Shown here in pieces: positions 1 to 16,361 of a stretch of DNA of 20,210 nucleotides. The stretch comes from a virus, in IMG/VR virus record IMGVR_UViG_3300007538_000257, positions 1-20,210 of that record, one strand, 5' to 3'. Position 1 is the stretch's first letter. Each line of letters begins with the position of its first letter. Both the position numbers and the translations under genes were made by a program. Under the pieces are notes generated by a model. That model was not told the origin of the DNA. It made no database searches and was given only the letters and a program-made list of their open reading frames with translations.

Positions 1-444
1 AAAAAAGCATATCAAACAATGCTTGAAAGGGGAACCGGGGTAGCTAATAGGTCGGAATCTTGGAGGCAAAATGTTTCCAAATCAGCAAGAAAAAGAGTAA
101 ATAACCTTAGAAAGCATAGAATGACTGGGGACTCTTTATCTTTAATGACTAAAACCTATTGGTTTAATTTTTCTGGTAAGACTGTTATCGTGGACCAAAA
201 GGATTTTGACAATTTCCTTGAAACCAGTAAATATTTGTGTAATGTTTTTGGTTTAAATATCAAAGAATCTGAACACAAAAAATTTATTAGATTGGTAAAA
301 GGAGAAAGAAAAGTCTTCCATGGCATAACAATAGATAAGGTAATCAGCAGCCAAGCTGTTCCGGGAACGGAACAGAAGGTTCAGAGACTAGAAGCCGAGT
401 CCAGAACGGACAGTAATGCTTCCACGAGCGCCCTCCAACCCTAG
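1..444 (+). CDS. Intron-encoded homing-endonuclease-like protein, C-terminal part
   Basis: The reading frame is open at the left edge of the window (codons AAA AAA GCA TAT before the first ATG at 19), so only the C-terminal ~147 residues are visible. They are basic and rich in Lys, Asn and Ser (WRQNVSKSARKRVNNLRKHR), like the DNA-binding tails of HNH or GIY-YIG homing endonucleases in phage introns. No catalytic motif lies in this part, so the class cannot be named. The frame has no stop until 442-444 and so runs through the intron's Q- and R-like core segments; the last ~30 residues are therefore constrained by ribozyme structure. Base composition is clearly A/T-richer than the capsid exon. 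The endonuclease assignment is inferred from position inside a group I intron and from composition. Confidence 0.55.
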   Translation, partial: KKAYQTMLERGTGVANRSESWRQNVSKSARKRVNNLRKHRMTGDSLSLMTKTYWFNFSGKTVIVDQKDFDNFLETSKYLCNVFGLNIKESEHKKFIRLVKGERKVFHGITIDKVISSQAVPGTEQKVQRLEAESRTDSNASTSALQP

Positions 445-519
445 GGGTTGAAGATATAGTCCGAACTTACATGAAAATGTAAGAAGCGATGAGTTAAATG
501 CTTTCGCGATAACATATTG
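1..519 (+). mobile_element. Group I intron, 3' portion, interrupting the capsid gene
   Basis: The conserved core of a group I intron can be read here: a Q-like segment (AATCAGCAGCCAAGCT, about 342-357), an R-like segment (GTTCAGAGACTA, 379-390) and an S-like segment (AAGATATAGTCC, 451-462). Hairpins fit the fold: a perfect 8-bp stem with a GGAA tetraloop at 356-375, a CAACCC/GGGTTG stem around 436-450, and CTTACAT-GAAA-ATGTAAG just after S, a P9-like stem with a GNRA loop. The intron should end in G; G519 is the best candidate because the capsid frame opens at the next base (TAC AAG AAT). The 5' exon, P1 and the 5' splice site lie outside the window. Such introns self-splice from the transcript. 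Confidence 0.85.
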
Positions 520-1449
520 TACAAGAATACTGACGGTGTGGCGACTTTCTTCGCTCCCTCTGTGTCCATGAACGTCCGTGCTGGTCGTACTCTTACCTTC
601 GGGAAGGAGGCCTTCGCAGCTCAAAACTTCCTGCGTGCACCCGGTACCAACATTCAGAAAATCTCGAATGAATTCGGTACCCGGAGCTTCTCGCTTCGTC
701 AAGAAGCGATTAGCTGGCAGATCGCTGAAGAAGTTGCTGCGGAAGCCAAAAACGGTGCTGCTGCAATCGATCTTCGCGCCTATGCCGCCAAAGACGCTGC
801 AAATCGTCTGATGCAGTCCTGGGAAATCCAGGTTGCTAGCAAAGTCCTGGATGTGACCCAGTACGAGGCCGGTAACGTGCTCGATCTCGCCACCTACAAT
901 TCTGGTGCCGATCAGTTCAATAGCCCGACCTCTGACGTGGAAGTCCTGATGGACGACCTCAAAGAGCAGGTGCGTAGCCAGATTGGTTGCTATCCGAACA
1001 AGCTCGTGCTTTCCCCCGATGCGTTTAACGCCCTGAAGCGTAACAAGCGTATTCGTGACTTCATGCAGCGCGGTGTCCTGGTGAACGAGAAGACCCTCGC
1101 AGAGATCTTCGGTCTCGACGAGATTCGCGTCGCCCGCCGCCTTAAGCTTGGTGAAGACAACGCAAGCCTAGAGAACATCTACAACAACGTGGCTCTTCTC
1201 TTCTATCACCCCAGCGGTGCTACTGACGGCTTCACCCCCGCTCTTGATGCAAACTACGGTACCCCGGCTTATGCGTATACCTATACGCTGGCTGGCTATC
1301 CGATTTCCACCCCCGAGCGTTTCAACATGGATCGTCGTGTTTTCGAAGGCGACATCCTGGTTGAGCGTAGCTTCGAGCTGGTGGGTATGGGCGAAACCGG
1401 TCGCTGCGGCGCTGGTGCTGTCCTGCTCAACCCTGTGGGTGCAGCCTGA
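520..1449 (+). CDS. Major capsid protein (downstream exon)
   Basis: This exon encodes about 309 residues of a HK97-fold-type major capsid protein, the shell subunit of the phage head. Recognisable features are a central segment with paired Asp/Pro residues (NSPTSDVEVLMDDLKEQV), the CYPNKLVLSPDAFNALK block matching the usual 'PNTLV' strand and helix of phage coat proteins, and the following LAEIFGLDEIRVARR, matching 'la..fGvd.i.vg.a'. The N-terminal part lies in the upstream exon outside the window, and the frame is joined by intron splicing at about 519/520. A TTG at 517 could mimic a start but belongs to the intron end. It is followed by a strong terminator, then by connector genes, as in Mu-like head modules. 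Confidence 0.85.
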   Translation, partial: YKNTDGVATFFAPSVSMNVRAGRTLTFGKEAFAAQNFLRAPGTNIQKISNEFGTRSFSLRQEAISWQIAEEVAAEAKNGAAAIDLRAYAAKDAANRLMQSWEIQVASKVLDVTQYEAGNVLDLATYNSGADQFNSPTSDVEVLMDDLKEQVRSQIGCYPNKLVLSPDAFNALKRNKRIRDFMQRGVLVNEKTLAEIFGLDEIRVARRLKLGEDNASLENIYNNVALLFYHPSGATDGFTPALDANYGTPAYAYTYTLAGYPISTPERFNMDRRVFEGDILVERSFELVGMGETGRCGAGAVLLNPVGAA

Positions 1450-2381: not shown

Positions 2382-2741
2382 ATGTGGACATCTGACGCCA
2401 ATCAAACTTACGGATACGATCCCCTGAATCCCGGTATGCCCGGAGGATCGAGCCTGCTGACTATCGTGCCGAATACGGCCAGCGCGGCTTGCGGATATAA
2501 TACAAGCGGATTGCAAGGTCTCACGCACTCCAGTTTCGGCGTATTCCCGGATAGTACGCAGTACAAGCAGACGGCTAGCGAATTACGCCAATATATCGTC
2601 AACCTCGAAGCTACAAGGAAGTTGCGCGACCTGGCCGATGTTAACTTTCAGCGCTCCCCGGAACCCGGCGATGTCCTTGCGTACAACTATACTACCGGGC
2701 TGTGGGAACTACTTGATTTCGTGTCCGGCGGTGAGTTCTGA
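2382..2741 (+). CDS. Small virion structural protein with tail-fibre-type repeat
   Basis: A 119-residue protein. The first two thirds are Gly/Ser/Thr/Asn-rich and match nothing I recognise. The last ~45 residues contain LRDLADVNFQ..., then GDVLAYNYTTGLWELLDF, the 'L.DV....GdvL.yn..tg.We' repeat common in phage tail fibres and other virion proteins. The preceding gene ends in a related motif, so the two probably act in one substructure. It lies 46 nt after the connector gene with no terminator between. Its 3' end overlaps the convergent deaminase-like gene by 33 nt. Confidence 0.65.
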   Translation: MWTSDANQTYGYDPLNPGMPGGSSLLTIVPNTASAACGYNTSGLQGLTHSSFGVFPDSTQYKQTASELRQYIVNLEATRKLRDLADVNFQRSPEPGDVLAYNYTTGLWELLDFVSGGEF

Positions 2742-3112
2742 CCACGCACCATTGTCGGTGGAATAGTAGACGCGTTCGATACCTGATTCGGCAATGGCCA
2801 GTTGGCACACGGGGCACGGACGCGCCATGCACAACTCACCACGGCGATTCACCCTTCCAATAACCAACGTGTCACACAAAGCAGCATCGGGCTTGAGCAA
2901 CGCTCTTAGCTCCGCATGGAGCGATACTCTGTAGGGCTGACCGACCTGCTCTGCGAGGCGTGATTGGACAGGGTGCGTCTTGCCCCACACATTGGTGCTT
3001 CGAACTGCGATACGGTTTTGCGAAGCAAGACGCATCCGACTCGCCAGCGCGAATCGATAGAGAGTGCGAGGTCGGTTACGGCTTTAGTTACGTGTCTACT
3101 CACCATCGGCAT
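2709..3112 (-). CDS. Deoxycytidylate/cytidine deaminase-like protein, split by a -1 frameshift
   Basis: Deaminates dCMP or a related cytidine compound to supply dUMP/dTMP for replication. The zinc site is plain: HAELRALL (His and catalytic Glu) and PCPVC (two Cys), followed by GIERVYYS. The family's N-terminal strand (SRWRVGCVLLRK) lies in the frame starting at ATG 3110-3112, but the rest (NRIAVRSTNVWGKTHP through the zinc site) lies in the -1 frame. The frames join at a run of four A (TTTT on the + strand, 3016-3019); one extra base there, or a -1 ribosomal slip, restores a normal ~134-aa enzyme. Without the join the first frame stops at about 2906. The start overlaps the stop of the gene upstream (TGATG). 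A sequencing or assembly indel is the simplest explanation; a real pseudogene or programmed shift remains possible. Confidence 0.75.
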
Positions 3113-3327
3113 CAGTCAATAATTCCGGCCATACGCATACAGATCTCACCCCACTCAAGGATGTCACGTCCCTTGAAGTATTTGGACGTGGGGACCTCCC
3201 TATCCAGTACCCTTTCGCCCGTATCCAGGCGTTCCATGCGCAAATAACCATACGACTCGGTCTGCGCTAGCACATAGCAACGATAAGTGTCATCAAGGGT
3301 ATTTTCCCAGAGGACGTTAGGGTTCAT
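3112..3327 (-). CDS. Hypothetical protein, 71 aa
   Basis: A small protein of unknown function beginning MNPNVLWENTLDDTYRCYV. I chose ATG 3325-3327 because TTGGAG lies at a good distance upstream; a TTG start five codons earlier is possible but would consume that site. Its stop overlaps the start of the deaminase-like gene (TGATG), so the two are translationally coupled and probably serve the same process. The upstream region holds a TGCTATTCT extended -10 and a GTTGAAAGC element. Confidence 0.65.
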   Translation of the reverse strand: MNPNVLWENTLDDTYRCYVLAQTESYGYLRMERLDTGERVLDREVPTSKYFKGRDILEWGEICMRMAGIID

Positions 3328-3350
3328 GGCGGTGTTCTCCAACTAGAAAT

Positions 3351-3359
3351 GCTTTCAAC
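3351..3359 (-). promoter_or_regulatory. GTTGAAAGC upstream element (copy 2)
   Basis: Lies 23 nt before the ATG at 3327. It directly follows TATTCT (3360-3365), part of an extended -10 TGCTATTCT, so transcription from that promoter would start within this word. Confidence 0.55.
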
Positions 3360-3368
3360 AGAATAGCA
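3360..3368 (-). promoter_or_regulatory. Extended -10 promoter TGCTATTCT
   Basis: TGC plus TATTCT resembles the GTGCTATACT motif found elsewhere in the window. The predicted start point is near 3353, giving a leader of about 26 nt for the 71-aa gene and the deaminase. Confidence 0.4.
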
Positions 3369-3405
3369 GCAGTGACGCAACCGATAAACAAAACGCTCAC
3401 GGAAC

Positions 3406-3414
3406 GTTGAAAGC
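3406..3414 (+). promoter_or_regulatory. GTTGAAAGC upstream element (copy 3)
   Basis: On the + strand of the divergent gap, 39 nt before the ATG at 3454. Together with copy 2 on the other strand, each divergent transcript has its own copy in its own orientation. It is followed by five bases and AGGA. Confidence 0.6.
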
Positions 3415-3453
3415 TTTTAAGGACGACACATCCCACCATAGCATCCTGTCCCC

Positions 3454-4401
3454 ATGCTTCTGGAGATCGAGAACCAACTTCATCGACGGGTGCACAGCAC
3501 GCTCGGGCAGAGTGCTGTGGTGCTACGGCTTGCCGAGCAGCTCGATGACTCTGGGCGCGTGGCCGAGCAGGCGATGATCATTGTGTCGTTCACTGGGGCG
3601 AATACAGATAATCCGAATAAGGGCGCTTACATACCCACAGTGCGCACACGCACGCTTACGTACACGCTCACCCTGGTCCAGAAGCAAGCACAGCGAGAGG
3701 GACATTCGTTTTGTTTGCCCATCCTCGATCTTCTCGCAGACGCCATCACAGGGTGGGTACCTGAGGTCCCTGGGCTTGAGTTCCAGACTGGATTCGAACT
3801 TGGTCCCGAGCGTTTTGTACAGGTAACCCCTGAATCCTCGCAATTCATTTACGAACAGACCTACACCATTGAAGTGTTGATGCATGACGGTCGTTTCTAC
3901 AGCCAACCATGCGCTGCGTTTAATCCTGTCCAGGTGGGAGACTTCTTGCCGGTGTGTAAGTGCCTTGTAACCCCGGGCTCAGATAGCCGGCAGACCGGCC
4001 TTGCCGTCTGGAGACGCACACTGGATACGGATACGGAGCAGCGGTATGTGGTCGAGGATTTCAGATGCGGGCGCTTGATTGGTGACAATCTCACCGTCAC
4101 ATGTACGAATTCGGGTGACGGCACCGCCACATACGTATTCACTCCTATTACTGCGATACGTGCCGATGGCAGCGTAGACACTTCCCTCCAGGTGACTGGA
4201 ACGTTAACGGATGTATGGAAATGTACGAGAGAGGGTACTAAGTCGGGTTCGGAATACCCTGACTGGTTCAGTCTGAATATTGACACCGGGTTGTGGCGTA
4301 ATGCGGTTGGCACCGTGCCCAACACAGAACCCGAAACAAGTTCCTATCAGTCGCTGACTATTACTCCTAACAAGGTGTATGATGAGAAATCGGTAACCTA
4401 A
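3454..4401 (+). CDS. Mu gp37-like (DUF1834) structural protein with long C-terminal domain
   Basis: Residues 1-~150 have the layout of the Mu gp37/DUF1834 family, found next to gp36 in Mu-like morphogenesis modules: an N-terminal helix (MLLEIENQLHRRVHSTL), a strand with FTGAN, a conserved RTRTLTYTLTLVQKQAQR strand and helix, LLADAITGWVP, then a closing strand ending in YEQTYTIEVLM. This supports a head-tail connector or tail-terminator role. Residues ~165-315 form a second, beta-rich, Thr-rich domain that I do not recognise (…TVTCTNSGDGTATYVFTP…), possibly surface-exposed. No Shine-Dalgarno site is visible before the ATG. A GTTGAAAGC element lies upstream, suggesting its own late transcript after the minus-strand insertion. 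Confidence 0.65.
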   Translation: MLLEIENQLHRRVHSTLGQSAVVLRLAEQLDDSGRVAEQAMIIVSFTGANTDNPNKGAYIPTVRTRTLTYTLTLVQKQAQREGHSFCLPILDLLADAITGWVPEVPGLEFQTGFELGPERFVQVTPESSQFIYEQTYTIEVLMHDGRFYSQPCAAFNPVQVGDFLPVCKCLVTPGSDSRQTGLAVWRRTLDTDTEQRYVVEDFRCGRLIGDNLTVTCTNSGDGTATYVFTPITAIRADGSVDTSLQVTGTLTDVWKCTREGTKSGSEYPDWFSLNIDTGLWRNAVGTVPNTEPETSSYQSLTITPNKVYDEKSVT

Positions 4402-4436
4402 GCCATTTCTCCCTACTGACCCCTCCTCCTCTCACC

Positions 4437-4850
4437 ATGGAAAAAGAATTTCTCGCCGCCCTCACCGCCCAATACAATTTAGCTGGTGCTGCTCAGCTTG
4501 CCCACTGGAACTCTGAAGGTGAAAACTTTTATGAGTACCACCTTCTCTTCGAGCGCATCTATGAGACTGCGGAAGCGAAGATCGACATGCTTGCAGAGCA
4601 AGCTCGTGGCAAAGGTATCCAAATCAAGGCGTCTATCTTCACTGATGTTCCGGAAATTGACTGGGACACCTGCCAAGAGCTTGCTAAAGAGATCAAAGAG
4701 CTTGTCGACAAGCTCTGCGATGCCCTTAAGAAGTTGCATGCCAAAGCCGATGATAGCGAGGAATACGGAATTCTTAACGTTATCGAGGACATCCTGTCTG
4801 ACTGTAACACTATGCGCTATCTGCTCGGTAGCGTTAACAGTGAGTTTTGA
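4437..4850 (+). CDS. Dps/ferritin-like iron-binding, DNA-protection protein
   Basis: A 137-residue four-helix protein, shorter than typical Dps (~155-180). The ferroxidase motif is complete: H23 in AHWNSEGENFYEYH, H35, E39, and D50/E54 in IDMLAEQ, with the spacing H-12-H-4-E/D-11-D-4-E seen in Dps proteins. Known members form 12-subunit cages that oxidise Fe(II) with hydrogen peroxide and store iron, limiting hydroxyl radicals. In a phage it could protect host or phage DNA during infection of a photosynthetic, peroxide-producing cell, or it could be a virion component given its place beside structural genes. It lacks the long Lys-rich N-terminal tail used for DNA binding in E. coli Dps. It follows the gp37-like gene after 35 nt. 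Confidence 0.85.
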   Translation: MEKEFLAALTAQYNLAGAAQLAHWNSEGENFYEYHLLFERIYETAEAKIDMLAEQARGKGIQIKASIFTDVPEIDWDTCQELAKEIKELVDKLCDALKKLHAKADDSEEYGILNVIEDILSDCNTMRYLLGSVNSEF

Positions 4851-4858
4851 TAAAGTAA

Positions 4859-4876
4859 GGGAGGCCTGAGCCTCCC
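4859..4876. terminator. Bidirectional hairpin between convergent genes
   Basis: GGGAGGC-CTGA-GCCTCCC lies between the dps-like stop (+) and the RlpA-like stop (-). There is no strong T run; on the minus strand it is followed by TTACTTT. A weak bidirectional terminator is likely. Confidence 0.6.
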
Positions 4877-4887
4877 CGACCATCAGC

Positions 4888-5253
4888 TTAGCTGAGTCTC
4901 GTATAGCAGACGCTGGCTACACCGGCAGAAGGCGATGCGATACGGGAAAACGCGCCGTGGGATAAATCCAAGATACGCCCCCCGTAGTACGGTCCTCGGT
5001 CGGTGACAGTGACAGTGACAGAACGGCCGTTGTCCTGGTTAGTGACCCGGATCCGGCTACCGAGTGGTAGCGAACGATGAGCGGTAATGTTCGCTCCAGG
5101 GTCCATAGGACGGCCATTGGCCATTGTTTGCCAAGCATAGCCGTCACCCACACCATAGTGGCTAGTGAGCCCGCAGCGGGATGCTGCGTGGGCGGGAGAC
5201 TGAATGTGGGCTACGCCCGCAACCAGAGTTGCTAGTGCGAGAAGTTTACGCAT
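4888..5253 (-). CDS. RlpA-like double-psi beta-barrel protein with signal peptide
   Basis: A 121-residue secreted protein. Residues 1-~23 are a Sec signal peptide (MRKLLALATLVAG...) with an AHA|A-type cleavage site. The mature part is the RlpA-like double-psi beta-barrel: a SHYG near the start, TMANGRPMD, ITAHRSLPLGSRIRVTN, NGRSVTVTVTDRGPY and GRILDLSHGAFSRI, with Asp85 in TDRGP and His59 matching the conserved catalytic-type residues. RlpA proteins of bacteria cleave peptidoglycan strands lacking stem peptides. In a phage this points to a cell-wall-cleaving role in lysis or in cell-division interference. No separate SPOR domain is present. A possible 37-aa lipoprotein-like frame overlaps its start. 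Confidence 0.85.
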   Translation of the reverse strand: MRKLLALATLVAGVAHIQSPAHAASRCGLTSHYGVGDGYAWQTMANGRPMDPGANITAHRSLPLGSRIRVTNQDNGRSVTVTVTDRGPYYGGRILDLSHGAFSRIASPSAGVASVCYTRLS

Positions 5254-5770: not shown

Positions 5771-8530
5771 CTACCGGTCGGCCAGAGAATTTAATGTAGA
5801 TACTAGGCTAGTTATAGTATGAGCGCGGCCATCAGGCTCAGCATTAGGCTGCGACACAGTCACCGTACTGGCCGTAGCCGCCTTTCTGAAGATTTTGTCA
5901 ACCTCAATACTGCTAAACCATGCATTTGCATGGGGCATCTCACAAATCTCGTACTTATACCGCAACCAAGCCCAAGACCACAAATGAGCCACCTGGTATA
6001 ACGCGCTAACTAGATCAGCATCCTCTTCGCGACACATGTACAACACACTGTCGTGTACAGACATACAGAATCTGGCACGAACGTTAAATCGTCGCGTAAG
6101 GTGTTCCATGGCTGTAAGGAACGCATGAAGCATGGCGCTACCTGTAGACTGAATTACCCAGTTATTGCGCATAGTAAAGAATTCTTTGCCTACGGATTTA
6201 GGTCTAAAGGCTGTAGACATTCGTGTGCCGCTTAGGGGGTTGCAGGGAACATCTAAGTTGGCGATTCGCGACATTTCATTGTAAGCATATGAATCGCTAC
6301 CTCCTATTAAGTTCGGAGATGTTTTGCTGGCTTTTTTACCCTTCTTGCGAATAATAAGTTTTTTACCCATAGCTTCGGCCTCTTTGAGGCTAATGGACTT
6401 ATTGCCCTTTCTGATCGTTGCAGCTAGTGTTTTAACTCCAGATCCATACAACATCCCATAGTTGCACCCCTTGGCAATCGATCTAGAAATACCAATAGTT
6501 TTTGCTGTCATGCTATGCATATCTGTACCGTCATCTTTGGATCCGGCTAGAACACTATGACCAAACTGAGTACTTCCCGCGATTTTATGGTACGAATCGG
6601 CAAAGATACTTGCTATCACACTTTCTTGTCCATCATAGTCTGAGGATACAAAGGTCCAAGGGGATTTTAATTGAACACGAGTTTTTACTTCAGTGCCAAT
6701 CTTATCGGGTTTGGGGTCGGGTACTGTTAGCCAAAGGTGCTCACCAGCACGATTTGTGGCAGTATTATGGGGAATGGTTTGAGGAATAATAATATCCATA
6801 TCTGATTCGTCTATAGCCTTTGTAGGAAGCTGTTCTAGCACTCGACTGCGCACTGAAGTCCAATAACTTACCTTCACTGCAAGACGAATTAGTTCTTGAG
6901 CTTGAGGCAAGTCACTAGATAGCATTCCTGATTCAAAGTCATCTAGAAAGTCTTTACTAAGCACACCACCTACATTTAATCCTTCCCCATTGGGGTGAGG
7001 TAATCTTTCATAAGTCGATTTTTCCTCATCCCAATACGTCCAACCTTCATCCTTAGAGTACACCATTGGCTGACCGTTCCATTTAAGGCGTAATAGGATA
7101 TGGCTAAGCCTGCTCTTAGTCGTAATAGGTTCTAGGACAATACGACCCAAGGTCTTATCGTTTTTGGCGTTTTTTCTATACCACATTGGCACCCCATACC
7201 AACAACTCTTAGGGGTTCCATCCTTTTTCAAAGAGAAATTAGCTTCCCAATCAAGCTGAGAAAACCACGGATCAGGATCTGGATCAATATCTCCGTTTTT
7301 CCAGTCATGCAACAACTCTTCAGCAATCTCGCTCAATAGCTCATCTTGTCTGGAGATTGACTCTTTCCACACTCTTTCACAATTTTCTACCCAGTCTTTC
7401 CAATCTGAAACAACTGGCAATACAGATCCAGTTTGAGAAAAGTGTCCGTATAACGTTGTAAGACTAGGGTTAGATTGAAGATATTTAAGTACAACAATTG
7501 AATAGAGGTCAAATGTCAATTTGACATCTCTAAGTGCGTATTCAACCAGTCTATCTCTATCTGGCTCAAAATCCCACATAGATTCGGCTACAACAAATAG
7601 ATTTCTAGTCTTCTTAGTTTCTTTTTTCACAGGAACCATTGGCTTGCAATGGAAGTTATATGCATCGACTAGATTATTAAGCGAACCCTTGTCTACCCAG
7701 GAGGGTTTTCCTACTCCTTTAAAGGTTTTGTCGTCTGGATTAGTGAACCAAAATCGTTGATCAGAGGCTAAACCTGATACATTAATATGAGCGGACATTG
7801 TATCGAACCACAGGTTCCCAAAGGGGTCAGCTTTGTCAAATGGATCGTGTCTCAGGTAATATGCCTCACGAGTGCGTTGACGATCAAACCCTGCGTTGTG
7901 AGCAATCAGCAACGTATTCGTAGTACCTAGAGGAACAAGTTGGGGGATGTAGGGAACCGCAGGGTCAACAAAAGACTGATGCATCCAAACCCAGTACGAG
8001 TCAGGTGATACAACTGTTGCAAGGATGGGGTGGCCGAAGTTGGTACCTTTGACAAATGTTTCGCAGTCAAAGATAGCGATATCGACACCCTTTAATCCAT
8101 CGGGTTCGTGAGTAACAGTCCAAGATCCATCCTGAGACCATTTGTACCTTGTCCAGCCTGTTTGGTAGACAAAATCTCCGATATTTGGGGGCTCTGGAAC
8201 CTCAAGATCAGCAAACTCCTTGAGGAGTGTTACTTTGTCGCCAAGTATATCCTTACTGGTATTATCAAAGTGTTCGGCTATATTGTCGCCACTTAGAGGA
8301 GGCAGGTAGAAGTCAGGGAGTTTTGTAAAAATATCTGGGTTCTTAATGGGAAATTCTACTCCGAATTTCTCCATATCGTCTTTTATGCTATTTATGATTC
8401 CAGGATTTGGACCATTAAATAGATTATCAAGGTGCTTAGCGTGGTAATTTGTTACTTCCTCGTCGCCAAAAGCGGCTCGTGCCATGTCCGGGCCAAGAAC
8501 CGAGTAGCCAAGTGGGTTCAGATGGGTCAT
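5771..8530 (-). CDS. Family A DNA polymerase with 3'-5' exonuclease, polymerase-gamma-like
   Basis: A 919-residue replicative DNA polymerase. Exonuclease: Exo I IFDCET (D155, E157), Exo II HNAGFD (N212-D216), Exo III YALRD (Y331, D335). Polymerase: motif A SSDYDGQESVIAS (D631), motif B RSIAKGCNYGMLYGSG (R683, K687, Y691), motif C VHDS (H826, D827; Ser replaces the usual Glu). From memory the whole length resembles mitochondrial DNA polymerase gamma more than E. coli Pol I or T7 gp5. The motif A form is DxDxQE, not DYSQIELR. Also shared are GTDMHSMTAKTIGISR, WVIQS, RFCMSVHD and REED, SLNNL and FDTMSAHINVSGL in the exonuclease, and WNGQPMVYSKDEGW in the spacer region. The gene looks A/T-richer than its flanks. 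A TATACT lies upstream at 8555-8560. Confidence 0.93.
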   Translation of the reverse strand: MTHLNPLGYSVLGPDMARAAFGDEEVTNYHAKHLDNLFNGPNPGIINSIKDDMEKFGVEFPIKNPDIFTKLPDFYLPPLSGDNIAEHFDNTSKDILGDKVTLLKEFADLEVPEPPNIGDFVYQTGWTRYKWSQDGSWTVTHEPDGLKGVDIAIFDCETFVKGTNFGHPILATVVSPDSYWVWMHQSFVDPAVPYIPQLVPLGTTNTLLIAHNAGFDRQRTREAYYLRHDPFDKADPFGNLWFDTMSAHINVSGLASDQRFWFTNPDDKTFKGVGKPSWVDKGSLNNLVDAYNFHCKPMVPVKKETKKTRNLFVVAESMWDFEPDRDRLVEYALRDVKLTFDLYSIVVLKYLQSNPSLTTLYGHFSQTGSVLPVVSDWKDWVENCERVWKESISRQDELLSEIAEELLHDWKNGDIDPDPDPWFSQLDWEANFSLKKDGTPKSCWYGVPMWYRKNAKNDKTLGRIVLEPITTKSRLSHILLRLKWNGQPMVYSKDEGWTYWDEEKSTYERLPHPNGEGLNVGGVLSKDFLDDFESGMLSSDLPQAQELIRLAVKVSYWTSVRSRVLEQLPTKAIDESDMDIIIPQTIPHNTATNRAGEHLWLTVPDPKPDKIGTEVKTRVQLKSPWTFVSSDYDGQESVIASIFADSYHKIAGSTQFGHSVLAGSKDDGTDMHSMTAKTIGISRSIAKGCNYGMLYGSGVKTLAATIRKGNKSISLKEAEAMGKKLIIRKKGKKASKTSPNLIGGSDSYAYNEMSRIANLDVPCNPLSGTRMSTAFRPKSVGKEFFTMRNNWVIQSTGSAMLHAFLTAMEHLTRRFNVRARFCMSVHDSVLYMCREEDADLVSALYQVAHLWSWAWLRYKYEICEMPHANAWFSSIEVDKIFRKAATASTVTVSQPNAEPDGRAHTITSLVSTLNSLADR

Positions 8531-12141: not shown

Positions 12142-12542
12142 TACACTCTTACCTTACGCCAACTTTTACCATCATAATAGGATACGAGTTCCTTAGAGAA
12201 GATACGAATCGTGCCGGGATGAGGCCCATAATATGTACGCTTCTTACCAGCGTTATTGTCAAAAATCTCGTTAAGTTTGTATTCCATGCCCGAAACACTG
12301 CTAAGTAGTTGCTTTTCCACCCACTCATATATCCTGATGATGTCGCTACCTGTGAATTTGGCAAAATAAAGAGCCGAGAGCCTAGGAACACTAATCCCAC
12401 TCATCTCCACGTATTCATTGCTGGCAGGGTGGAGCTTGTAACCAAAAAATGCCTTGGATCTAGGGTTTTCCATGTTCGCGAAGCGATGCAGGTCTCCGGG
12501 GCCAAGGGTGAAATACGTATCCGAGTCAGTCACAATCACCAT
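12141..12542 (-). CDS. Hypothetical protein, 133 aa
   Basis: Begins MVIVTDSDTYFTLGPGDLHR at ATG 12540-12542; earlier in-frame starts (ATG 12572, TTG 12590) would lengthen the overlap with the bilin reductase and add nothing family-like. The body is mixed alpha/beta with a basic end (SYYDGKSWRKVRV). It is packed between the bilin reductase (17-nt overlap) and the methyltransferase-like gene (TAATG). Its place directly behind the reductase invites a bilin-related role, but no motif supports this. It does not look like a heme oxygenase or a CpeT-type lyase. Confidence 0.6.
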   Translation of the reverse strand: MVIVTDSDTYFTLGPGDLHRFANMENPRSKAFFGYKLHPASNEYVEMSGISVPRLSALYFAKFTGSDIIRIYEWVEKQLLSSVSGMEYKLNEIFDNNAGKKRTYYGPHPGTIRIFSKELVSYYDGKSWRKVRV

Positions 12543-13155
12543 GTGGGAACAGGTACGTTCGGATGTAGTCATTTGCGAACTCGGCTCCAAAGTACGACTT
12601 CAATATACCATGGGCGGGGTCGTGATCGGCCATATACCGGTCGAATCCGGTAAAATCGGGCCTGTTACCGGTGTTTGCCGGCAGTCTCGCCACATAACGG
12701 CGCAATCTTTCGTAACATACCGTTACGAAATCCTCGTAAAAAGGGTTATCACTCCTCTTGTGCCATAATTTGGTCGAAAAATACGTATCCAGGTCGTAAT
12801 GGCGTGAACTTTGGACTTCTCGAGGAGAAAAATCGGGGAAAAACGCCTCAATAGGGCGATTATCACCATTTGGTGGGTGAAAATCCGTCGCCCCTAAGTA
12901 GCGATTGGCCATTTCGATGTACTCGGAACCGAAAATCGGGAAATCCCGTCCCTCAGACGGATACACCAGCAGCGTTTCGGCAAAAAACTTGCCCGGAACC
13001 GTCAAAATACAGCCCCGGGCATACGATATACCGAGATCCGGGTACCGGATCGCGATGGATTCGATCCGAACGGGGCCGGATTCATCGATCCGGGGCTCCC
13101 ACTCCCCCTGAATCACTTCAACGGCCCACTTTTCTGACCACAACGGTGTTGTCAT
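12526..13155 (-). CDS. Ferredoxin-dependent bilin reductase (PebS/PcyA/PebA family), divergent
   Basis: 209 residues. These enzymes reduce biliverdin to phycobilins using reduced ferredoxin. Family blocks: LLVYPSEGRDFPIFGSE (65-78), aligning with PcyA 'FPEPLYGLPLFGCD' and phage PebS 'YPKTGADLPCFGMD'; ATDFHPP (89-95), like 'FDFQHP'; and a C-terminal FDRYMADHDPAHGILKSYFG...YIRTYLF matching 'F..Y...lDP.rG.mk..FG...v.dfLF'. The Asp of DHDP (D179) matches the second catalytic Asp of PebS. The first catalytic Asp (D105) is Glu78 here, and the His/Asn before the YP motif is Thr61 or Glu60. The product therefore cannot be predicted. It overlaps the AbrB-like gene by 38 nt. No heme oxygenase gene is in the window. 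Confidence 0.85.
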   Translation of the reverse strand: MTTPLWSEKWAVEVIQGEWEPRIDESGPVRIESIAIRYPDLGISYARGCILTVPGKFFAETLLVYPSEGRDFPIFGSEYIEMANRYLGATDFHPPNGDNRPIEAFFPDFSPREVQSSRHYDLDTYFSTKLWHKRSDNPFYEDFVTVCYERLRRYVARLPANTGNRPDFTGFDRYMADHDPAHGILKSYFGAEFANDYIRTYLFPHGDCD

Positions 13156-13501
13156 CTCTAAGTTCCCACTGCAATGTGTCGCCTACTCTCCATTTTAACA
13201 CATTACACACCACTTTCGGGAGTGTTATCGTGCCGTTTTCACTGATTTCAGTAATAAAATGCGTCTGTTGGTACTTGCCAGACTTGTAATCGTGGGAGAT
13301 TTTAGCCTCCATGTCATCCGCGATCATATTTTCATTGATCTGGATGTACTCGAGCATGCCGTTGACAGTGTTTGCGACGGAGTCGACTACCTTTGCGGGT
13401 ACTTTGGGGTCGTCAGCGATAGCCGAAATCGCCTTGACCAACTCCTTTAACGTAGTGCTGTAGTTGAGGAAACGTTGTTCCAGGTCTTCCCAAGGGTGCA
13501 T
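13118..13501 (-). CDS. AbrB/SpoVT-like DNA-binding domain protein
   Basis: 127 residues. Residues ~1-80 are helical (MHPWEDLEQRFLNYSTTLKE...). Residues ~84-126 form a swapped-hairpin AbrB/MazE-like domain: EISENGTITLPKVVCNVLKW, then VGDTLQWELRDDNTVVVRKV, matching 'g.itlPkevr..L.l+.GD.v.fe..d.....l++'. Such domains bind DNA as dimers; cyanobacterial cyAbrB proteins regulate redox and nitrogen genes. It probably regulates phage or host genes and leads the bilin-reductase operon. The extended -10 TGCTAGAAT (13529-13537) gives a leader of about 21 nt. Confidence 0.65.
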   Translation of the reverse strand: MHPWEDLEQRFLNYSTTLKELVKAISAIADDPKVPAKVVDSVANTVNGMLEYIQINENMIADDMEAKISHDYKSGKYQQTHFITEISENGTITLPKVVCNVLKWRVGDTLQWELRDDNTVVVRKVGR

Positions 13502-13972: not shown

Positions 13973-14482
13973 TTATTCTTCTAGGCTTTCAACACCACTT
14001 AGAGACTCTAACGGTTTAAGTACATTTTTCGGTACAAAAAACGCCGGTCTCCCTCTGGCCGGATCCGCCCAGAACCGTTCCTGCATCACGTCCCCGGCCA
14101 CGCACCAGCCGTGGATCAGGATCCGGTTGTTCTCGATCGTCACGAGGACTAGCTTTTTATCCGGCCTCTCATCCCTCTGCACAATAAGGTCGTAGTAGTG
14201 GCGGCTACGAGTCTTGACCTCGATGTCACCGGGCAGGTCGGCTACACCCCGTTTCGCTTCTTTCTCCGCAAACAAATGCTGCTCAAGACCCAGATGCGCT
14301 GCGACCGCTACTTCGCCTTGAGCCCCCAGCCGATGCATTTCCAGTGCGCGGTTTCCGGACTCCGGCGCCCGGTTTCTTCCCCGCAACCCCTTTGCTTCGT
14401 TTGCTTGCTGCCGTCTTAGTGCTTCGTTTTCGGCGAGTTCCCTTTGATGGGGCGTCAGTGTGACCTGGATCGGGATAGGCAT
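13973..14482 (-). CDS. PD-(D/E)XK nuclease-like phage protein
   Basis: 169 residues. GAQGEVAVAAHLGL (E57), then DLPGDIEVKTRS (D86, E88, K90) form a PD-(D/E)XK catalytic set, followed by YDLIVQRDE, KLVLVTI, ILIHGWCVAG and GRPAFFVPKNVL. This block order matches a common phage family with a restriction-endonuclease or resolvase-like fold. The N-terminal LTPHQRELAENEALRRQQAN segment also fits that family, so ATG 14482 is likely correct even though it puts ~200 nt in overlap with the topoisomerase gene. It could act in recombination, resolution or host DNA breakdown. Confidence 0.7.
   Translation of the reverse strand: MPIPIQVTLTPHQRELAENEALRRQQANEAKGLRGRNRAPESGNRALEMHRLGAQGEVAVAAHLGLEQHLFAEKEAKRGVADLPGDIEVKTRSRHYYDLIVQRDERPDKKLVLVTIENNRILIHGWCVAGDVMQERFWADPARGRPAFFVPKNVLKPLESLSGVESLEE
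13985..13993 (-). promoter_or_regulatory. GTTGAAAGC upstream element (copy 7)
   Basis: 31 nt before the ATG of the 81-aa membrane protein, within the last codons of the nuclease-like gene (GVESLEE). Followed by five bases and AGAA. Confidence 0.5.
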
Positions 14483-16361
14483 TGGGTAAATCGTTTAACC
14501 ACACCGTTAATTTAGCACGTATCACATCGATACGCTCATTGGCGCAAGTCTCGATAAAGGCGTTCCAAGCATATTTACCCCTCTTCGGCATACCACGCGC
14601 AAGCGCGTCGGTCTTCATTTGCTCCAGTAGTTGTTTGCGCTCTAGCTTGCCCGCCCGCGTTGTCATCTGAATACGGTGGGCATACTGCTCCTTATAATCG
14701 GTCCACGCGTCGTGCAACTTGCCTGTGCCCACGTTATCGGCAATCCACCGATTCACCGCCCTCGCAGTCATTCCCAACAACTTACCCTCGCCCACGATAC
14801 GTTCCCGCTCCGTCAAGGGCCTCGCTTTAGCAGGGGTTTCCGCGATATCTTCAGTCATCCACACAGCCCTTGCAGGGCCTCCTAGGCCCCTCAGAGAGGC
14901 GATTTGAGTGCATATATGGGTGTCAAGTTCCGGCCCGGGTGAGCACAACGGTCGGAGCGTAGCGATCTGTTCGGATACGATCGCATGCTGCTCATGGACC
15001 TTGTCCGATTCCGTCGCAATCAGAGTGGAGACGGGTATGCCGATCACATAGCGAGCCATGCTCTCGTCCAATTTCCACCCCCTCATCACCTTAGTGACCG
15101 CAGTCTCCTTGTCCTTTGCAGTCCGCACAATCTTCAAGAATTTATCCAAGTCGGTGAGGACCCGGACCACAGCGTTGAGGCGTGCGAGTTCTGTAGTTAG
15201 TTTGCTTACCTCATGCTGATTAACGCTAGCCACATAACGTACCCTTTCCTCGTACCATGTCAGTATTGATTCTTTGACCCCGACGGTGCGCGGCTTACCG
15301 TCAACCCCTACGGCCGTACAGTTCACGTTGTGAACAAACTTAAGGCCCGTATTGCCGTGTAGCAGTGTCGACAGGATGGCGTCCCGATCCTCGACCTTTT
15401 TCATCACCAGCACGATCCGGACTCCATCACGACTAGAGAGGTCGGCGGCGTCGAGCAGGCCGGGCAATTTATCGGCGTCAGCAAGATCACGTACACGCTC
15501 CAGGAACTTCTCGCTTGACCCGTTAGCCAATTTCGTCACAATAAGTGCGGGGCGAGTTGAGCGCTTACCCCACGCCAACTTATCATCCATCTCCCACTCC
15601 CCATACGCCACCACGGCCCCCTTTCCCGTAAGTAACACGCTACCCAAGCCGTCATCTTTAACGATTCTCCCGCCGGCAGGAGGCTCGGGCGGATTCGCAA
15701 ACTTAGACAGTAGAGATTTATCAGTAAGGTTTTTATTCTTAATAAGGGCGGTGGTGGCGTTTACCACATCCTTTAGGTTCCACGGGATGTGGTGGCATGC
15801 ATAGCCGCTAGCGATACCCTGTGAGCCGGTCAGCAATAGCGCAGGGAGCGCGGGAACGAAACGTGCAGGTTCCTGGCAAGTACCGTCGTAGTTCTCTCGC
15901 CATTCGCCAATACCTTGACGTACCTGTTCTAGGTATACCTGGTCAGAGAATGTGGTCGACCGTATCTCCAAATACCTTGGCGCGGCTGGCGGATCTTCAG
16001 ATACCATTTGACCCGCCGAATCACCACACTGGATCGATCCGCCCGCATTACCATGGATATCAGAAAGAGTATACCTCATACTGGAATGTTGACCCATCAC
16101 GATCGCAACGGATGATGATGAACCATGGGGATGATACTTGGACAGGACAGTACCATCCAGGCGTGACACTTTGATGTAACGAGTACGAGAGGATAAGTCC
16201 AGATCCCTCATACCCAGCAACACTCTGCGTTGTGCAACCTTCAACCCATCAACCACATCCGGTAACGCCCGGTTAAATATGGCGCAGCTATAGGATAGAA
16301 AGTCCGTGATGAGTTCGGACGTAATTGATACGGATTCGGGCATGGGTTGCTTAGTCGCCAC
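14283..16361 (-). CDS. Type II DNA topoisomerase subunit A (GyrA/ParC-like)
   Basis: 692 residues; breaks and rejoins DNA as the DNA-cleaving subunit of a type IIA topoisomerase. Near the N-terminus are RALPDVVDGLKVAQRRVL, KYHPHG (75-80), DIHGNAGG and AAPRYLEIR with catalytic Tyr130, then NYDGT, GIASGYACHHIPWNL and a long coiled-coil gate region. The segment between GDSAG and the Tyr is longer than in GyrA. There is no beta-pinwheel domain; instead a Lys/Arg/Ser/Gly tail (~630-692) is encoded in the stretch that overlaps the nuclease gene. Start GTG 16361 overlaps the previous stop; ATG 16343 is an alternative. The ATPase subunit is not in the window. Confidence 0.9.
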   Translation of the reverse strand: MATKQPMPESVSITSELITDFLSYSCAIFNRALPDVVDGLKVAQRRVLLGMRDLDLSSRTRYIKVSRLDGTVLSKYHPHGSSSSVAIVMGQHSSMRYTLSDIHGNAGGSIQCGDSAGQMVSEDPPAAPRYLEIRSTTFSDQVYLEQVRQGIGEWRENYDGTCQEPARFVPALPALLLTGSQGIASGYACHHIPWNLKDVVNATTALIKNKNLTDKSLLSKFANPPEPPAGGRIVKDDGLGSVLLTGKGAVVAYGEWEMDDKLAWGKRSTRPALIVTKLANGSSEKFLERVRDLADADKLPGLLDAADLSSRDGVRIVLVMKKVEDRDAILSTLLHGNTGLKFVHNVNCTAVGVDGKPRTVGVKESILTWYEERVRYVASVNQHEVSKLTTELARLNAVVRVLTDLDKFLKIVRTAKDKETAVTKVMRGWKLDESMARYVIGIPVSTLIATESDKVHEQHAIVSEQIATLRPLCSPGPELDTHICTQIASLRGLGGPARAVWMTEDIAETPAKARPLTERERIVGEGKLLGMTARAVNRWIADNVGTGKLHDAWTDYKEQYAHRIQMTTRAGKLERKQLLEQMKTDALARGMPKRGKYAWNAFIETCANERIDVIRAKLTVWLNDLPNAYPDPGHTDAPSKGTRRKRSTKTAASKRSKGVAGKKPGAGVRKPRTGNASAGGSRRSSGRSASGS

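Follow-up and report, generated by a model that had tools for sequence, protein, structure and literature searches.

The window (the whole stretch of DNA analysed here, a 20,210-base IMG/VR record that represents a fragment) carries on its minus strand an open reading frame of 919 codons, starting with ATG and holding no internal stops, which encodes a DNA polymerase organized, from the N- to the C-terminus, as a 3'-5' exonuclease, a short spacer and a polymerase domain (Table 1). The major capsid gene, judged by similarity, marks the window as a putative S-TIM5-like phage. Directly before the capsid ORF a group I intron is found, and an ORF overlapping this intron has no family match. The S-TIM5 capsid is encoded by one ORF, whereas the capsid gene of the window comes with the intron region. 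As the alignment with the S-TIM5 protein begins at residue 21 of the latter, the window gene is probably interrupted by the intron, and its exon 1 would lie beyond the left edge.

DNA gyrase is present in S-TIM5 and S-CBWM1 as it is in the window, where the GyrA-like ORF has a low-complexity, basic and Ser/Gly-rich C-terminal part and overlaps another ORF in a different frame. SpeD and the tRNAs for Arg, Leu and Met are found both in the window and in S-TIM5. Over this 20-kb fragment, comparison with Aurunvirus gives 57% identity for the polymerase and 79% for the capsid, with gyrase A, SpeD and tRNAs shared and a gene order that differs in places. The bilin reductase-like gene is probably a diverged phage bilin reductase, and a ferredoxin-dependent enzyme of this type points to a cyanobacterial host. 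The window also encodes a Ferritin/Dps-like protein, an RlpA-like protein with a signal-like N-terminus and a protein with a C-terminal MazE-type domain, for which no toxin partner was identified.

Table 1. Position and evidence of the genes, domains, motifs and other features in the window
Feature	Position	Strand	Evidence or remark
Group I intron	156..483	+	RF00028, 56.7 bits
ORF overlapping the intron	19..444		
Major capsid protein (exon 2)	517..1449	+	PHROG 1005, E 3e-57; 79% identity to S-TIM5 capsid aa 21-326
Ferritin/Dps-like protein	4437..4850	+	PF00210
RlpA-like double-psi beta-barrel protein	4888..5253	-	PF03330
Pol gamma-type family A DNA polymerase gene, 919 aa	5771..8530	-	ORF and translation; PDB, Pfam and PHROG matches; model; fold
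Mitochondrial polymerase exonuclease domain PF18136, aa 73-348	7487..8314	-	hmmscan, E 2.7e-44
Exo I motif, aa 151-162, FDCETF; D155, E157	8045..8080	-	Alignment with yeast and human Pol gamma
Exo II motif, aa 208-220, IAHNAGFDRQRT; D216	7871..7909	-	Alignment with yeast and human Pol gamma
Exo III motif, aa 328-340, LVEYALRDVKLTF; Y331, D335	7511..7549	-	Alignment with yeast and human Pol gamma
Short spacer, aa 421-528, with WNGQPMVYSKDEGW and LPHPNGEGLNVGG..KDF	6947..7270	-	Segment search; residue alignments with human and yeast
Polymerase motif A, aa 628-642, SSDYDGQE; D631	6605..6649	-	Alignment with yeast and human Pol gamma
Polymerase motif B region, aa 680-702, GISRSIAKGCNYGMLYG; R683, K687, Y691	6425..6493	-	Alignment with yeast and human
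Polymerase motif C, aa 819-832, ARFCMSVHDSVLYM; D827	6035..6076	-	Alignment with yeast and human
Ferredoxin-dependent bilin reductase-like gene	12526..13155	-	PF05996, E 2.3e-11; weak match to PHROG 7278
MazE-type (AbrB-like) DNA-binding domain, C-terminal	13118..13501	-	PF04014
ORF overlapping the GyrA-like ORF by 200 bases	13973..14482		Other frame
DNA gyrase/topoisomerase IV subunit A-like gene	14283..16361	-	PF00521, E 1.4e-75

The polymerase had been described in a first-pass annotation as resembling mitochondrial polymerase gamma over its whole length, and all the motifs quoted there are found in the translation. The catalytic residues of exonuclease motifs I-III and of polymerase motifs A, B and C all align with those of yeast and human Pol gamma. 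Motif C reads HDS and not HDE, with Ser where Glu stands in most family A enzymes, a form common to T5-like polymerases. The DNA pattern of motif A occurs once in the window, at 6624-6640, with an expectation of 0.

A phmmer comparison with all PDB chains retrieved 14 sequences at E <= 0.001, every one of them a Pol gamma; yeast MIP1 was the best match (E 5.7e-108, 365 bits), with mouse POLG at 2.9e-89 and human POLG at 1e-87 and weaker. A profile built from 20 viral relatives gave POLG and MIP1 526-610 bits, versus 45 bits for the next family A enzyme, Aquifex PolI. Within Pfam, the "DNA mitochondrial polymerase exonuclease domain" (DNApol_Exo, PF18136) was matched with 151.8 bits against a cut-off of 26.7, and was recovered also by a six-frame search of the whole record (E 6e-46), while the generic DNA_pol_A model matches much more weakly (E 5e-12). 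The earlier claim that the likeness goes beyond generic family A motifs is therefore borne out by the MIP1 match, the profile scores and the exonuclease domain. It could still be supposed that the gene encodes an ordinary phage PolA, similar to T7 gp5, T5 or PolI enzymes, and that its likeness to POLG consists of shared family A motifs only, since such motifs are common to all these enzymes and the generic profile does find the protein. However, besides the gap in profile scores, the aligned sequence is 31% identical to yeast (799 residues) and to human (775), whereas T7 gp5, E. coli PolI and a T5-like enzyme reach 17-19%, and we consider the probability of an ordinary PolA to be negligible.

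The fold speaks against an ordinary PolA as well. An AlphaFold2 model of the polymerase, built with 20 phage sequences, reached a pLDDT of 83.6 and a pTM of 0.84, with low confidence at aa 250-299 and 587-594. When this model was searched against the PDB with Foldseek, the first 36 matches were all Pol gamma chains (TM by query 0.70-0.83), after which came phage G20c PolI, T7 and Klenow with TM 0.34-0.39; VIA-align Z scores to Pol gamma were 27-40 over about 750-866 residues, whereas those to Pol theta, Taq, T7 and other family A enzymes did not exceed 16.2. Among viral models the top matches were G0KYA6, which is 959 aa long, and two pieces, one of 608 and one of 245 residues. Equal protein lengths identify these as the A-HIS2 polymerase and the two Mic1 ORFs, and ordinary PolA came next with a TM of about 0.4.

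Concerning the spacer, a comparison with human POLG had been proposed as a check, and it agrees with the other evidence: the 201-aa segment aa 400-600, searched alone, has significant E-values to Pol gamma only (yeast 3e-21, human about 1e-6), and the whole polymerase model aligns with Pol gamma from end to end, spacer included. Folded alone and without an alignment, the spacer gave an unusable model (pLDDT 38), and the spacer is therefore judged from the model of the whole protein and from sequence. Two gaps separate the phage and human spacers. At the first, about 10 phage residues (aa 436-446) stand opposite about 68 in human POLG (native positions about 499-568, which is the 5c51 numbering +34), and yeast, aligned at this site, shows no large gap; at the second, between WNGQPMVYSKDEGW and LPHPNGEGLNVGG, human has about 127 residues, yeast about 41 and the phage about 10. 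We take the first human insert to be the accessory-interacting determinant that binds POLG2 (about residues 511-570). In residue alignments this accessory-interacting insert of the animal Pol gamma holoenzyme (POLG with POLG2) has no counterpart in the phage spacer. The phage enzyme is therefore built like MIP1 of yeast, an enzyme that lacks the insert too and works without POLG2. The likeness over the whole length thus holds for the phage protein, but not for animal POLG, which has two further spacer inserts that the phage lacks.

A phylogeny of family A polymerases was inferred with IQ-TREE (LG+C20+F+G4, 490 columns), with an outgroup of nine further family A polymerases; the enzyme of cyanophage 9515-10a was left out of this set because its matched stretch is not one open frame. 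Mic1 was represented by its two ORFs joined, omitting the intervening stretch. Eukaryotes are represented by yeast and human alone, with sequences that were derived from PDB alignments and therefore lack their inserts. A branch with 100/100 support separates the phage and mitochondrial Pol gammas from the nine other enzymes, and the window polymerase falls apart from T7, T5, SPO1-like and actinophage polymerases and from E. coli PolA. Forcing T7 gp5 together with human and yeast Pol gamma made the log-likelihood worse by 73.7 and was rejected (p about 1e-111). The first-pass annotation had named such a tree as a check, and the protein stands in the fully supported Pol gamma clade; placement in an ordinary PolA clade with no spacer match to POLG did not occur. 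Membership among T7 gp5-like or PolI-like phage PolA is ruled out by the 17-19% identity, by Z scores of 16 or less and by the position outside that clade.

Sequence, fold and tree all support a genuine homology to mitochondrial Pol gamma. Together with the catalytic residues and the gene context in relatives, they give us high confidence that the gene encodes the replicative DNA polymerase of an S-TIM5-like (Aurunvirus-type) myovirus and that this enzyme is a true Pol gamma member with one ancestor in common with the animal and fungal mitochondrial replicase, most likely working as a single chain in a phage whose host, by similarity, is most likely among marine picocyanobacteria. In this enzyme the N-terminal DEDDy-type exonuclease would proofread, the C-terminal fingers-palm-thumb would extend primers and the short spacer may contact the duplex. 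A POLG2-like partner is probably not needed, because the human accessory-binding insert is absent, and processivity would then be partner-free. The probable partners are the phage's own DUF5906 primase, a Dda-like helicase and a 5' nuclease; genes for replication partners are seen in sibling genomes, and none of the proposed ones lies inside the 20.2-kb fragment.

Three overlapping scans of IMG/VR gave 31, at least 80 and at least 80 Pol gamma loci (171 near-full-length entries before duplicate removal), and relatives are found in more than 100 viral contigs, phages of about 280 kb among them. They comprise a group of S-TIM5 and the window, a group of S-CBWM1 with the contigs L191 and L193, Mic1-like copies and a divergent lineage, L196. 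Scans with S-CBWM1 or A-HIS2 as the single query protein brought up nothing beyond S-CBWM1 itself, and the A-HIS1/A-HIS2 pair brought up no match. With the limited patterns tried, no relatives were detected in 84,980 prokaryote species genomes, nor were any found in the plasmids scanned or in 14 control genomes. We know of no bacterial Pol gamma, and phages are for this reason the only close non-eukaryotic relatives of the mitochondrial replicase, which makes their Pol gammas the best handle on its origin.

Several of these contigs have features of their own. The jumbo-size L191 (279 kb) and L193 (277 kb) carry a Pol gamma related to that of S-CBWM1, and the available portions of the published cyanophage Pol gamma accounts make no mention of the gene in jumbo-size phage contigs. 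L196 encodes at 2600-5002 a divergent relative of 800 aa that shares 25-27% identity with the other polymerases compared; a DUF5906 gene lies nearby in the same orientation. In the tree this protein is placed near Mic1 and the eukaryotes on a very long branch. As in Mic1, the gene is found in two or three ORFs in L106, L116, L119/L192, L121, L039 and L040, and among these split genes an Rfam group I intron is present in L039 only.

The direction of transfer is a question of origin, compatible with the identity of the gene given above. We think it probable that animals and fungi owe their mitochondrial Pol gamma to a phage member of the family, whose donor was near the Mic1 lineage and not near T7. 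Yeast and human group with Mic1 in all trees, with bootstrap values of 94-100%: support is 98/90 in the nine-outgroup tree, and 99/100 when three long rows are removed, while three smaller sets of outgroups give 97/99, 94/89 and 100/99. Mic1 shares 39-43% identity with the yeast and human enzymes, which are 44% identical to one another, and the failure to find prokaryotic relatives with the limited patterns tried points the same way. The best rooted trees put eukaryotes among the phages or in an unresolved fork with them, and phages as a single clade without eukaryotes appear in no best tree. However, a forced phage-only clade, evaluated by AU tests with differing outgroup sets, is rejected, and that weakly, with two of them (p 0.037 and 0.025) and stands with two others (p 0.0625 and 0.31). 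It should be noted that the root is fragile because the outgroups lie so far away, at about 2 changes per site, and that the eukaryotes sampled are two; a phage-to-mitochondrion direction is favoured rather than shown, because rejection of the phage-only clade depends on the outgroup. The opposite history, in which a eukaryotic (or mitochondrial) Pol gamma was captured by phages that then spread it, draws on the same unfixed root and on the phage-only clade beside eukaryotes that survives under two outgroup sets. We regard it as improbable: phage sequences are more diverse (about 30-40% identity from one major group to another) than those of yeast and human, the L196 lineage adds further divergence, and the isolates with a stated host all come from cyanobacteria.

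A related reading is that one such phage gave mitochondria the entire replisome, that is Pol gamma, Twinkle helicase and POLRMT, all three of which are discussed as phage-like or phage-related in PMC3914683. Twelve genomes or contigs of Pol gamma phages, the contigs being possibly incomplete, were searched for DnaB_C (the Twinkle/gp4 helicase domain) and for a T7-type RNA polymerase, and neither was found in any of the 12, while both were detected in the T7 control. A DUF5906 protein is present instead in 11 of the 12; those of S-TIM5 and A-HIS1 are annotated as "DNA primase" and both belong to PHROG 25243, and Dda-like helicases are carried by S-TIM5 and Mic1. The priming and unwinding system thus differs between these phages and mitochondria, which speaks against one such phage as the source of the whole replisome; a single phage of Pol gamma type probably did not supply it, and we hold a donation of all three enzymes by one phage to be very unlikely. 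More tentatively, and with somewhat less than even confidence, the mitochondrial replisome may combine two or more unrelated phage systems, with Pol gamma coming from a cyanophage lineage near Mic1 and Twinkle and POLRMT from another, T7-like source. Among phages, Pol gamma would instead be accompanied by a DUF5906 primase module in unrelated types of virion.

Phage Pol gammas have been known since 2011, and the gene of the window adds to a described group. PMC7156551 (2020) lists Pol gamma genes in A-HIS1 and A-HIS2 (Chan 2011), S-TIM5 (Sabehi 2012) and S-CBWM1 (Xu 2018), reports that of Mic1 (Yang 2020), puts forward a common ancestry with mitochondrial Pol gamma, and describes a polymerase, flap nuclease, helicase and primase as common to Mic1, A-HIS and S-CBWM1. 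PMC4928673 (2016) takes the S-TIM5 enzyme as support for a phage origin of the mitochondrial DNA polymerase. The first-pass annotation was right in seeing a bearing on the phage origin of mitochondrial enzymes, an argument already published from 2011 onward. What the window adds is a sub-clade of full-length phage Pol gammas, and the set of more than 100 contigs opens the direction of transfer to a better-rooted test and argues against T7-like phages as the source of Pol gamma.

Among known systems, the S-TIM5 DNA polymerase (AEZ65654; Aurunvirus) is that of the nearest isolate, aligning over 916 aa with the same domain layout and, as in the window protein, without the animal spacer inserts; S-TIM54, S-TIM61 and S-TIM66 give an equal full-length 57% match. 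The window polymerase differs in belonging to a sub-clade of its own, with metagenome members 67-79% identical. The polg genes of the Acaryochloris phages A-HIS1 and A-HIS2 encode full-length homologues and were the first report, with the same evolutionary argument; these phages are siphoviruses, and their enzymes are about 28-33% identical to that of the window and have a long insert before motif B. Synechococcus phage S-CBWM1 (about 36% identity) and Microcystis phage Mic1 (about 30%) have full-length members of the same family, but the Mic1 gene is split into two ORFs and groups with the mitochondrial enzymes, unlike that of the window. Yeast MIP1 and human and mouse POLG resemble the phage protein in exonuclease, polymerase, parts of the spacer and fold; unlike it, they are nuclear-encoded mitochondrial enzymes, and animal POLG is further distinguished by its two extra spacer inserts and by POLG2 binding.
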